Shown one piece after another: positions 248 to 34,000 of a DNA stretch of 38,775 bases. The position numbers and the translations under genes are program-made. The stretch is from Candidatus Equimonas enterica. GTDB taxonomy: Bacteria; Bacteroidota; Bacteroidia; Bacteroidales; Bacteroidaceae. The notes beneath the pieces are model-generated. The model had not been told where the DNA came from and ran no database searches. It saw only the letters and a program-made list of their open reading frames with translations. The stretch lies in assembly GCA_018066225.1 (NCBI GenBank), contig JAGHRU010000124.1, forward strand, positions 1 through 38,775. The letters run 5' to 3'. The stretch's first letter is position 1; every line of letters starts with the position of its first letter.

Positions 248-355
248 GGCGAAAAGGGCAAGAAGAAAATACGATACGGGCAGGCCGACGCATTTTACTG
301 CCCAGTAAAATCAATTTTAGAGGGCAGTAAAATAAATTTTAGTGGGCACTAAAAT
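248..355. repeat. 22-bp phased intergenic array, locus A (5 units)
   Basis: GGGC/GCCC cores start at 256, 278, 300, 322, 344 (exactly 22 bp apart). Unit 3 attttact-GCCC-agtaaaat and unit 5 attttagt-GGGC-actaaaat have perfectly complementary 8-bp arms. Confidence 0.85.
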
Positions 356-408
356 GAAAATGTAAAGGCGGGAAAAGAAAAAGACGCGCGCAAACAAAGT
401 GGCGTGCG

Positions 409-5860: not shown

Positions 5861-7153
5861 TTAGTCGATTTCCTCGTCAGCCTCGTAGCCACCCATCTCG
5901 CGGATGGCATTTTTGAGCATAACGTACTGCTGGAAGAGGTGATTGACGGGCACCTCATCGTGCGTGTAGTCGTGCATCGGGCTCTTGAGGAAGAAGGAGA
6001 GGAAGCGTTGGATGCCATAGCGACCGTCGCGGGCAGCAGCATCGCTCAGCAGCACGAGGTCGAGCAGCAGCGGCGCAGCGAGGATGGAGTCGCGGCAGAG
6101 GAAGTTGATCTTGATCTGCATGGGATAACCCATCCAGCCGAAGATGTCGATGTTGTCCCAGCCTTCCTTGTTGTCGTTGCGGGGTGGATAGTAGTTGATA
6201 CGCACCTTGTGGTAGTAGTCCGTATAGAGGTCGGGCTGCTCCTCGGGCACGAGGATGCTCTCGAGGGTGGAGAGTTTGGAGACCTCCTTGGTGCGGAAGT
6301 TGGCAGGCTCGTCGAGTACGAGGCCGTCGCGGTTGCCGAGGATGTTGGTGGAGAACCAGCCGGCAAGGCCGAGGCAGCGGGTGCCGATGATGGGGGCGAA
6401 GCCACTCTTGACGAGGGTCTGGCCCGTCTTGAAGTCCTTGCCAGCAATAGGCATCTTGGTCTTCTCGGCCATCTCCCACATGGCGGGGATATCCACCGTG
6501 GTGTTGGGCGCACCCATGATGAAAGGAGCACCTTCGGCCAGCGCAGCATAGGCGTAGCACATAGAGGGCGCGATATGCTCGGTGTCGTTGGCCTTCATGG
6601 CAGCCTCGAGGTGCGCCATGGTGTCGTGCACGTTCATATCTACGGGCACATAGATTTCGGTAGAAGCAGCCCAGATGACGACAACACGGTTGAGGTTTTT
6701 CTCGGCCTTGAAGCGGCGGATATCTTCACGGAGTTGCTCCACCATGTCCCAGCGGGTGGCACACTGCTTGACGTTGTCGCCATCGAGGCGGGCAGCGTAG
6801 TGCTTGTCAAAGGCTGCGGGCATGGGCTTGATGGCACGGAGTTCGTCCTCCACGGGGAGGATGTCCTTGGCCTTGAGCACCTCGGCATTGACGGCACTCT
6901 CGTAGGCATTGGCGGGATAGACGTCCCAAGCAGCAAACTCGATGTCCGTAAGTTTGGCCAGCGAGATGATGTCGCCGTAGTGGAGGTACTTCTTGTCAGC
7001 ACCGCGACCAACACGCATCTTGTCATACTGTGTCATACTGCCGACGGGCTTGGCAAGACCCTTGCGGGCCATGAGCACACCGGTCATAAAAGTGGTGGTG
7101 ACAGCACCGAGGCCGACACACATCACACCTAATTTTCCTTCTGCAGGTTTCAT
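5861..7153 (-). CDS. ino1: Inositol-3-phosphate synthase (MIPS)
   Basis: 430 aa; GLGAVTTTFMTGVLMAR NAD-binding start, VVIWAASTEIYVP, GKDFKTGQTLVKSG and NILGNRDGLVLDEPANFRTKEVSK typical of bacterial-type myo-inositol-1-phosphate synthases. Confidence 0.88.
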   Translation of the reverse strand: MKPAEGKLGVMCVGLGAVTTTFMTGVLMARKGLAKPVGSMTQYDKMRVGRGADKKYLHYGDIISLAKLTDIEFAAWDVYPANAYESAVNAEVLKAKDILPVEDELRAIKPMPAAFDKHYAARLDGDNVKQCATRWDMVEQLREDIRRFKAEKNLNRVVVIWAASTEIYVPVDMNVHDTMAHLEAAMKANDTEHIAPSMCYAYAALAEGAPFIMGAPNTTVDIPAMWEMAEKTKMPIAGKDFKTGQTLVKSGFAPIIGTRCLGLAGWFSTNILGNRDGLVLDEPANFRTKEVSKLSTLESILVPEEQPDLYTDYYHKVRINYYPPRNDNKEGWDNIDIFGWMGYPMQIKINFLCRDSILAAPLLLDLVLLSDAAARDGRYGIQRFLSFFLKSPMHDYTHDEVPVNHLFQQYVMLKNAIREMGGYEADEEID

Positions 7154-7198
7154 GATAAATTTTTATGGTTGTTTTGTATGTTACGCTTTCTAAAACTG

Positions 7199-7206
7199 CA
7201 AAATTA
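7199..7206 (-). promoter_or_regulatory. Bacteroidetes -7 element (TAATTTTG) upstream of ino1
   Basis: CAAAATTA on + reads TAATTTTG on minus, about 46 nt upstream of the ATG. Confidence 0.5.
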
Positions 7207-7353
7207 CGCAAAGTTTTTTACTGAACAAAATATACCAAAGAAAATTCACCCCTTACGCCCGATTTACGCACGAAAAAGCCGCGAAAAGCCCCTTTTGTCC
7301 ACGCACGAGGTTGCGATGGCTGGTATTTTTGTCGGTCGGCGGCCGTGCTGTGC

Positions 7354-7371
7354 TGCAAAAATTTTGACAAT
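7354..7371 (+). repeat. 18-bp box TGCAAAAATTTTGACAAT (copy 1)
   Basis: Exact inverted copy at 34001-34018; precedes the array at 7424 on the same strand. Confidence 0.75.
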
Positions 7372-7423
7372 GCCAAGCCGTGCATCTACGCACGCTCCCC
7401 CACCCCACAGACGCGACGCGCGG

Positions 7424-7554
7424 CACGACGAGGGCATATCGGACGAAGGACAAGGGCAGAAAAGCGACACGCTCTGCCCAGACCGTAGGACGCACAAGGG
7501 CAGACAAGCAAGGGTGACAACCCCACGCGCGATATACGACGAGGGCAGAGGCGA
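7424..7554 (+). repeat. 22-bp phased intergenic array, locus D1 (4 exact steps plus degenerate units)
   Basis: Cores GGGC 7432, GGGC 7454, GCCC 7476, GGGC 7498 (22-bp steps), a degenerate ACCC at 7520, then GGGC 7543. Confidence 0.75.
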
Positions 7555-7837
7555 GCAGCGCAGCGGTCAAAGGCGCAGCCCAAAGAAGCACAACGCACTC
7601 ACACACAACGCATTACCACACCAACTCAAAACAGCCATTGCTGCGCCTCACGCCTCATGCGCGCCTTTGCGCGACGCACAGCGGGTCTGCGGCTGCACAG
7701 CGTGTGGTCACTTTGTCGGTTGGCGCGACCAAAAAAGAGCGCAGGAAGTGCGTGCCGAAGCACGCCAACATAAGCATTATGTCATTCTCTCACCCTCCCC
7801 TTCCTCCCATTGTGCCGCTCAACACCCCTTCTTTGGC

Positions 7838-7879
7838 ACCAACCTGCGCAGACGCGAAAAACTATCTGCGCAGATGGTG
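7838..7879 (+). repeat. 22-bp phased intergenic array, locus D2 (2 units)
   Basis: GCGC cores at 7846 and 7868; unit aactatct-GCGC-agatggtg closely matches locus H. Confidence 0.7.
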
Positions 7880-7885
7880 CACAAA

Positions 7886-7918
7886 AAAGGTAGCCACGCA
7901 CGCGGCATGGCTACCTTT
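7886..7918 (-). terminator. Intrinsic terminator downstream of the susCD-lipoprotein operon
   Basis: AAAGGTAGCCA - cgcacgcggca - TGGCTACCTTT; on the minus strand the stem is followed by TTTTTT. Confidence 0.75.
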
Positions 7919-7963
7919 GATTGATACGTTACTGATGCGTAGGCGACCTACGCCAGCAGTGAC

Positions 7964-8401
7964 TTACTTCTGTACTGCGTTGAAGGAAATGGAAGGCAGT
8001 GCGCTACCACCCATGTGGAGCTTGCAAGCCGTGCGCTGTGCACCGTCTTGGTAAGCCACATAGAGCACCATTTCCTGACCAAGAGCAGAGTGCTCAGCGT
8101 CGAAGGCAATCTCTGCAACACCATACTTGACGTCGTAGGTCATCACACCATTGGTGCTGACACGGGGCTCTTCGCTGCCGTCCTTGGCAATCATCGTGAA
8201 GGTGCAATCACCATTTTCAGAAGTAGTAAATTCATAGGTATAGTGGTTGGTGTCGGGCGTATATTCCGAAACCCAAGTACCCTGAGGTGCAGTCTGGGGA
8301 TAAACAATCTGACCACCATCCTCATCAAACTGGTCGGTGCAAGATGCGAAAGCGCAACCGACAAGCAGCATGAGCAGGAATGACTTGATATACTGTTTCA
8401 T
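7964..8401 (-). CDS. SusCD-associated lipoprotein (hypothetical)
   Basis: 145 aa; lipobox-like signal MKQYIKSFLLMLLVGCAFASC; third gene of a susC-susD operon. Confidence 0.7.
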   Translation of the reverse strand: MKQYIKSFLLMLLVGCAFASCTDQFDEDGGQIVYPQTAPQGTWVSEYTPDTNHYTYEFTTSENGDCTFTMIAKDGSEEPRVSTNGVMTYDVKYGVAEIAFDAEHSALGQEMVLYVAYQDGAQRTACKLHMGGSALPSISFNAVQK

Positions 8402-15878: not shown

Positions 15879-17225
15879 TTACTCATCTTCATTGACAATC
15901 TTGCCGATAACTTTGCTCACTTTCTTGAAGAAGCCACCCACCTTGTTGGGCTTCTTGGGCTTCTCTTCTTCGACAATTTCGGGGACTTTTTCCTCTGTCG
16001 GCATTTCGGTAGAATTATCTGCCGTCGCAGTTTCAACGGTCTTACCTTGGAAGATGTCGCCACTGCCCTTATCCTTGCTACCACCGCAGCAGTTCTCCGT
16101 AGCCGACTCAATCATCGAGAGCACGACATTGTACTCGCCGTTACGGTTGAAGTGGCCGCCCGAGCGTACATTCTGCTTCACTATCTTGACATAGGATACC
16201 TTCTCAAACTTGGTGTATTCCTTGATGGCCTTGTCAATGTTTTTGAGGTTGGCGGCACGGCCTGTGACGATGATGCCGCCGATAAGGTTGTCCTTGCTGC
16301 TACCACTCATCTCTATCTGATGGGCCACATTGCAGAGGATTTCTTCCACGCGTGCTATCACGAGTTCGTAGTATCGCTCCATCTCGATGGTACGACCATC
16401 GCGCAGTGTCAGGGTCTCGCCCTCAGCGATTTCGTCTTCCTGCGGTATGCCATAGCGCAGTTTCAGTTCCTCGGCTTCGGCGGTAGAGATATTGAGTGAC
16501 TCGAGGTCCTTGGTGATGTTCATGCCACCCAGAGGCAAGACAACAAGATGACGCAGCAGATTTTGGCTAAACACAGCCACAGTAGTCGTGGCAGCACCCA
16601 TATCGACAAAGACGCAACCCGATTGTTTCTCCATATCGGAAAGCATCAGTTTGCTCACTTGCAGCGTTGAGAGTTCTATGCCTGCGATGGGAAGATTGGC
16701 TTTGGCGAAGCAGTCGTGGATGCGACGGCGTATCTCGGGCGCACAAATGAGGTTGAGGAATTTGCCTTGCAGGTTGTCGCTCTCCACGCCGATGACATCG
16801 AGCAAACTCTGCGTGCCTACCTTGTATTCCTGCTGCACCACTTGGATGATTTCCTTGTTATCCTTCACCGAGCTGGCATTCTCGCTGACGATGCTGCTGA
16901 TAACGTCGTCCGTTATCTTGTTTTGCTCCGAATAGTTGCGCTCCACGATGTGCTGCACAGAGTGAATACCCATACCGCCGTGGCAGACATAGACCTGCGA
17001 GATGGTTTTATCGAGTTTCTTCTCCATGTCTTCACGCATCATCTGGATGGTGTTGGTCATCTTATCGACATTGAAAATCTTACCCTTGGAGATAAACGGC
17101 GTAGCATCCTTCTCGGCATAACCGAGGACATGAATACTACCGTCGGGGTCCTTGCGACCTGCTGTAGCGACGACTTTCGAACTACCAAGTTCCACAGCGA
17201 ATACGAAATTATCTTCTGCTGGCAT
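15879..17225 (-). CDS. ftsA: Cell division protein FtsA
   Basis: 448 aa; FAVELGSSKVVATAG, VFVDMGAATTTVAVF, GGIIVTGRAANL, and a C-terminal amphipathic-like GGFFKKVSKVIGKIVNEDE. Confidence 0.92.
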   Translation of the reverse strand: MPAEDNFVFAVELGSSKVVATAGRKDPDGSIHVLGYAEKDATPFISKGKIFNVDKMTNTIQMMREDMEKKLDKTISQVYVCHGGMGIHSVQHIVERNYSEQNKITDDVISSIVSENASSVKDNKEIIQVVQQEYKVGTQSLLDVIGVESDNLQGKFLNLICAPEIRRRIHDCFAKANLPIAGIELSTLQVSKLMLSDMEKQSGCVFVDMGAATTTVAVFSQNLLRHLVVLPLGGMNITKDLESLNISTAEAEELKLRYGIPQEDEIAEGETLTLRDGRTIEMERYYELVIARVEEILCNVAHQIEMSGSSKDNLIGGIIVTGRAANLKNIDKAIKEYTKFEKVSYVKIVKQNVRSGGHFNRNGEYNVVLSMIESATENCCGGSKDKGSGDIFQGKTVETATADNSTEMPTEEKVPEIVEEEKPKKPNKVGGFFKKVSKVIGKIVNEDE

Positions 17226-22238: not shown

Positions 22239-22294
22239 AGGAGAAGTTTTGTGGCGTTGTAAATACTTGAAAATAAGATTCGTAGGACGGCTTT

Positions 22295-22358
22295 CACGAC
22301 AAGGGCAGACCGTGCAAACCATCTGCGCAGACCGTGCGAACTATCTGCGCAGATAGTT
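22295..22358. repeat. 22-bp phased intergenic array, locus H (3 units)
   Basis: Cores GGGC 22303, GCGC 22325, GCGC 22347. Unit 3 is a perfect 20-bp palindrome AACTATCT-GCGC-AGATAGTT. Confidence 0.85.
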
Positions 22359-22387
22359 TTGCGTGCTTCACCAGAGCGTGGCGCGCG

Positions 22388-33819: not shown

Positions 33820-33927
33820 TTCCTCCTGCCCCGGCCTCCTGCCCCGTCTGCCCGCATCGTGCTTACGGCGTGGGCAGAGACGCGCACCGACAAGGGCAGA
33901 TAGCGCGCACGGTCTGCCCGCATCGTG
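33820..33927 (-). repeat. 22-bp phased intergenic array, locus M (5 units)
   Basis: Cores GCCC 33828, GCCC 33850, GGGC 33872, GGGC 33894, GCCC 33916 at exact 22-bp steps; GCCCGCATCGTG recurs at 33850 and 33916. Confidence 0.82.
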
Positions 33928-34000
33928 ATGCGCCGCCCTTCATTGCGCCCCAAATAGGCGGCCTACCCCGTCACACCGCGCGCTAAATGCGGCACTACGG

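Follow-up and report, generated by a model that had tools for sequence, protein, structure and literature searches.

The repeat loci D1 and D2, upstream of the myo-inositol-1-phosphate synthase (MIPS) gene in Candidatus Equimonas enterica, are respectively a worn copy and a half copy of a dispersed intergenic repeat that almost always consists of exactly four 22-bp units. Both are non-coding and, as an earlier note on this DNA had proposed, belong to a single 22-bp-phased family with further loci in the window (the whole 38,775-bp stretch analysed here); that note missed the constant number of four units, the status of D2 as a half copy, and the spread of the repeat through the genome and through Bacteroidales. 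At a probability of roughly 0.5, our preferred explanation is a non-autonomous mobile repeat, built as a block of four tandem protein-binding sites, of which D1 and D2 would be decayed copies.

The window is contig C8 of a Bacteroidales MAG (86% complete, 1.85 Mb, 235 contigs), from which we read a sample of 630 kb, about one third of the genome, leaving out contigs masked as N. Genes were called with a simple codon model.

Arrays in the window

D1 and D2 lie in an 810-bp spacer (7154-7963) between the start of the MIPS gene and the 3' end of a gene encoding 145 amino acids. The spacer, its flanking genes and the other arrays of the window comprise the following features, with arrays listed without strand.

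291..356: three A-type units, cores at 300, 322 and 344, with an in-phase B-like unit before them at 269-290
5861..7153, minus strand: MIPS gene flanking the spacer; D1 is 270 bp upstream of its start
7423..7510: D1, four B-type 22-bp units, cores GGGC 7432, GGGC 7454, GCCC 7476 and GGGC 7498
7534..7555: stray B-like unit, core GGGC 7543, score 7.5, 1 base out of D1 phase
7837..7880: D2, a half-length array of two B-type units, cores GCGC 7846 and 7868, scores 11.6 and 25.7
7883..7915, minus strand: intrinsic terminator belonging to the gene at 7964-8401, with stem GGTAGCCA/TGGCTACC followed by a minus-strand run of six T
7964..8401, minus strand: flanking gene for 145 amino acids, without Pfam match; D2 starts 84 bp beyond its stop
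22294..22381: locus H, a four-unit B array between the YbeY and RuvB genes, sum 70.2, the top score of the window
33841..33928: four-unit B array, sum 48.3

None of the spacer's ORFs matches Pfam above the cut-off and the codon-based gene caller leaves the spacer empty; a coding region was rejected on this basis, in line with the earlier description of the spacer as lacking a convincing ORF. A known RNA family was likewise dropped, there being no Rfam match anywhere in the window. Judged by the MIPS protein, the closest named relatives of the MAG are uncultured Bacteroidaceae/Bacteroidales, at about 90% identity; the MIPS spacer has no similarity to 80 relatives, and on this ground a conserved regulatory spacer was dropped too. 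The terminator at 7883-7915 is strong and separate from D2, which lies directly outside it.

Against a weight matrix built from other contigs only, with the window left out, and a null of 200 window shuffles, the four units of D1 sum to 39.2 (shuffle maximum 4.3) and the two of D2 to 37.3 (null maximum 20.1). Split-half cross-validation again called D1 with four units and D2 with two. The six cores of D1 and D2 are where the earlier note had placed them, and its 22-bp phase holds for both loci, far above shuffles, but not for its extension of the series to 7520 and 7543: the ACCC at 7520, read as a degenerate unit, is present but scores as background (-14.7), and the GGGC at 7543 is present but the in-phase position is 7542. 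D1 itself is degenerate (unit scores 11.8, 2.0, 21.6 and 3.8) and not palindromic, with a self-complementarity of 0.34. The offset between D1 and D2, 414 bp or 18 x 22 + 18, puts them out of phase with each other; motif and unit length are what they have in common. The resemblance noted between D2 and locus H is real, in that both (locus H at 22303-22369) have ATCTGCGCAGAT at 22-bp steps.

The autocorrelation check that the note had suggested gave a divided answer. Across the whole 810-bp spacer lag 22 falls outside the top lags, and inside the arrays it ranks fourth in D1 (z 1.8) and second in D2. Since lag 22 does not dominate the spacer taken alone, the repeat becomes evident through its motif and through the rest of the genome; for the family as a whole there is a 22-bp peak, and its units are not part of a conserved coding region.

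A four-unit B-like chain also occurs at 15990-16077, inside a called gene (15879-17225) near its 3' end, and is either a chance occurrence or an array absorbed into coding sequence.

A genome-wide family of four-unit arrays

Pairs of TGSSCA in the 630-kb sample are found 103, 64 and 38 times at distances of 22, 44 and 66 bp, compared with about 3-4 times at other distances, and exact 22-bp pairs number 233 genome-wide versus 0 in a reversed control. Four-unit chains occur at 323 positions with a period of 22 and at 0-7 positions with every other period from 15 to 30. Among the 72 strong arrays in the 630 kb, counted with steps of 21-23 bp allowed, the unit count is four in 61, five in nine, two in two and never three; D2 is thus exceptional as a half array, since only two strong arrays have two units. 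Split-half cross-validation returned 86 arrays, 62 of them with four units, while the reversed-sequence control returned a single two-unit array. Although the sample is 81% coding, 79 of these 86 arrays are intergenic.

Two sequence families were recognised. The AT-rich family A has the form ATTTTA-n-TGSSCA-n-TAAAAT, with 77 units at one mismatch or fewer versus 1 in the control; the GC-rich family B, ACnnTCT-GSSC-AGAnnGT, draws on a small menu of half-sites. The order of units is weakly shared among B blocks (62% of pairs), and because it is weak the descent of these blocks from one master copy is not proven.

Dispersal and in-phase nesting

Evidence of dispersal comes from a congener, G020, which carries about 20 copies of one 88-bp block. 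Nineteen aligned copies share their unit order: in 98% of pairs, identity is higher with units in order than with units permuted. Identity reaches 99-100% in the best pairs, and the flanks of the blocks are mostly unrelated. The blocks end in TTATC...GATAA, and inspection by eye found no consistent direct (target-site) duplication at their ends.

Around the G020 blocks, units of another family stand in exact 22-bp phase in 37, 18, 11 and 1 of 38 cases at steps one to four, compared with 0-2% in off-phase controls, the one-step figure being an overestimate, since the matrix was trained on those units. In the genome of the window, B units beside A blocks exceed the 99th percentile in 16 of 20 cases at one step, 7 of 20 at two and 0 of 20 at three; the off-phase controls cover the G020 counts. 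Most simply read, an 88-bp block would insert midway into a four-unit array already in place, so that the units around the G020 blocks would be the older and the blocks the younger.

At four loci of G020 (L247, L249, L253 and L255, at the starts of contigs C30, C8, C17 and C4), one and the same sequence of about 80 bp, ending in ...TTTTTTCAGTACACCT, enters the core of a 22-bp unit, as if it were an insertion sequence targeting these units.

Arrays in other Bacteroidales

Arrays phased at 22 bp but of unrelated sequence are present in the congeners G019, G020, G031 and G086, and such arrays occur also in Phocaeicola coprophilus and a further MAG of its genus, as well as in Prevotella MAGs and Parabacteroides bouchesdurhonensis. 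Cultured species account for two of these genomes. Pooled lag spectra of runs of at least 8 matching bases show an excess at 22, 44 and 66 and little at 88. The motif differs even among congeners, and 420 kb of a closed congener, G004, contain no arrays, nor do 50 kb of E. coli that served as negative control. Given this recurrence with unrelated sequences and the null result in G004, the geometry is what these genomes have in common, and neither the sequence nor the presence of arrays is general.

One Prevotella MAG has a 22-bp-phased array of unrelated motif (L174:2550-2680) about 320-450 bp upstream of MIPS, a D1-like position that is probably a coincidence because other relatives have no array there. 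The units of an array in a Prevotellaceae MAG (L104:7142-7290), CTGAGGGCAATTTTTTGTCTCC, resemble what we take to be the F-plasmid RepE iteron, and units such as TGACCATTTTGAGGGGGCAAAG at L202-L206 of G086 resemble what is presumably the TrfA iteron of plasmid RK2.

Comparison with known repeat systems

In bacteria, dispersed palindromic repeats are commonly attributed either to a REP transposase or to a parent transposon. A REP transposase was not found here: PF01797 (Y1 transposase) has no match in the genome of the window or in four other array-bearing genomes (G062, G068, G070 and G071), and RAYT-driven REP was dropped on its absence from this genome, from whose assembly the gene has possibly been lost because the MAG is 86% complete. 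In other respects the likeness to REP/REPIN/BIME elements (TnpA-REP/RAYT) is considerable: these too are short, intergenic, high-copy, degenerate, species-specific, spread within a genome and palindromic, as most families here are (PMC3733652, PMC3116915, PMC8266576). The A, B and G020 blocks and the intergenic location of most arrays fit the description of a short palindromic high-copy intergenic repeat. What sets the present arrays apart, besides the lack of a Y1 transposase gene, is their fixed four-by-22-bp block and their in-phase nesting.

Two of the elements compared come from Bacteroidales. The BrickBuilt MITE of Porphyromonas gingivalis is likewise intergenic and dispersed with tandem units of similar length, but its unit is 23 nt in 1 to 22.8 copies, it has a leader and a tail with inverted-repeat ends, and it is confined to one species (PMC4596501); arrays of four 22-bp units share neither its unit length nor its variable copy number nor its leader and tail. 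PINSR of Prevotella intermedia, compared by its description alone, is likewise intergenic, with about 180 copies, lacks terminal inverted repeats and has no known mover, and differs in being a 188-bp repeat (PMC4755523). The TAACTGA sets of Beggiatoaceae and others are also short direct repeats without a known role, grouped in many intergenic sets; they differ in having a 7-nt unit in two to six or more copies, one fixed sequence and a location mostly just upstream of start codons (PMC4679880). CRISPR arrays have identical repeats with unique spacers, whereas the units here are contiguous and degenerate, without spacers.

Alternative explanations

Unlikely, and first among the alternatives, is a function for the arrays as sites close to gene ends that a host regulatory or nucleoid protein binds. 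The protein, perhaps an octamer composed of four dimers, would bind each array cooperatively, and selection would keep number and phase. Such a protein would account for exactly four units in fixed helical phase, and for half-site identities that vary without covariation within a unit or across the linker. It would also suit the location of the arrays, at a median of 36 bp from gene 3' ends as against 156 bp from starts; 13 arrays are in convergent gaps, where 6.3 are expected by length. Host sites do not readily explain why the motif changes between congeners and arrays are lacking in the closed congener G004, or why the spacer upstream of MIPS has no similarity to 80 relatives, and the near-identical blocks at unrelated sites, together with the nesting, resemble spread.

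Quite unlikely, in our estimate, is that these are chromosomal iteron arrays, derived from or imitating the origin iterons of Rep_3 plasmids and serving as decoys for plasmid initiators (incompatibility) or persisting as plasmid relics. The geometry is close: Rep_3 iterons of the F, pPS10 and R6K type are repeated directly two to seven times, with a unit of about 17-22 bp. F and pPS10 have four iterons and R6K and pPS10 22-bp iterons (PMC4980987), and eleven Rep_3 plasmids that we compared have a period of 22 (eight) or 21 (three) in about 3-6 copies. Non-palindromic direct-repeat arrays that resemble plasmid iterons are found in two of the genomes, G086 and G071. The A block of the window genome also matches iterons beside the Rep_3 gene of the Enterococcus durans plasmid NZ_CP077324, with the 18-mer AATGGGCAGTAAAATACA in common, but with so AT-rich a unit this one match may be accidental, and five other array queries found no plasmid match. 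It was the one match that similarity searches with several arrays gave for plasmid or phage copies. Exact array patterns have no match in viral contigs; the bare 18-mer has one match each in three of them, which by a rough estimate is about what chance would give. Further against iterons, the present arrays have many chromosomal copies, and their units are mostly self-complementary, with values of 0.64-0.70 for the A, B and G020 blocks compared with 0.21-0.46 for plasmid iterons and 0.39 for random sequence. No Rep_3 gene was detected with PF01051 or a 10-protein profile in the genome of the window or in nine of ten others; a resident Rep_3 initiator is thus absent from this assembly by both searches, and a MAG may miss plasmids.

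We regard as improbable a role at the RNA or single-strand level, in which transcribed hairpins would end transcription, protect 3' ends or be handled as single-stranded DNA. The proximity to 3' ends would fit, the array at L068 folds at z -8.9 and D2 with the terminator at z -7.3, and real arrays fold slightly better than chimeras of their units (z -2.7 to -3.8), a modest excess that leaves room for a single-strand role. Yet D1 folds no better than shuffles (z -0.9 and -1.9), D2 stands outside a separate strong terminator, and there is no Rfam match. With this weak excess of folding stability and no half-site covariation, hairpin-driven pairing was rejected, and the lack of covariation favours protein half-sites over a paired hairpin.

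Ordinary slippage minisatellites, functionless and immobile, would be tandem, imperfect and non-coding as these units are, but we dropped them as highly improbable because copy number is too fixed (four in 61 of 72 arrays, never three), one degenerate motif occupies scores of unlinked loci, and the period of 22 recurs across genera with unrelated sequence.

A proposed mobile block of four binding sites

With no Rep_3 or REP transposase gene found in this genome, we prefer the mobile four-site repeat. Its intact form would be an 88-bp, non-coding, dispersed block of four head-to-tail 22-bp units, each a putative site for a dimeric protein or a two-domain monomer. Because 22 bp is about two helical turns, four protein molecules would align along almost the same side of the double helix. 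Within the genome, blocks of one sequence family would spread to intergenic sites, new blocks often landing in phase midway in older arrays, and old blocks would decay by point mutation.

Sequence comparison shows the fixed period, the number four, the intergenic location, the near-identical congener blocks with unrelated flanks and the in-phase nesting, and it shows that this architecture recurs in other Bacteroidales with different sequences. We infer beyond this that the spreading is real movement of blocks, dependent on a sequence-specific protein that would read the four sites, with the gene for the mover lying elsewhere. Against this reading, there is no Y1/RAYT gene in the genome, inspection by eye showed no consistent target-site duplication at the ends of the G020 blocks, and the B blocks share their unit order weakly.

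More speculatively, and in our view doubtful, the arrays may be an undescribed class of mobile DNA found across much of Bacteroidales, built like a plasmid iteron origin of four 22-bp sites without a gene, with each species having its own sequence dialects, new ones inserting in phase midway in older arrays, and a fast-evolving, initiator-like protein as mover or reader; they might even act as chromosomal iteron decoys against plasmids. Searches of the open-access literature turned up no account of such 22-bp arrays with four units. Some congeners are rich in arrays and others free of them, and if an unrecognised protein builds or reads these fixed four-by-22-bp, species-variable arrays, a dominant order of the gut would harbour mobile, or anti-plasmid, DNA of a new kind.
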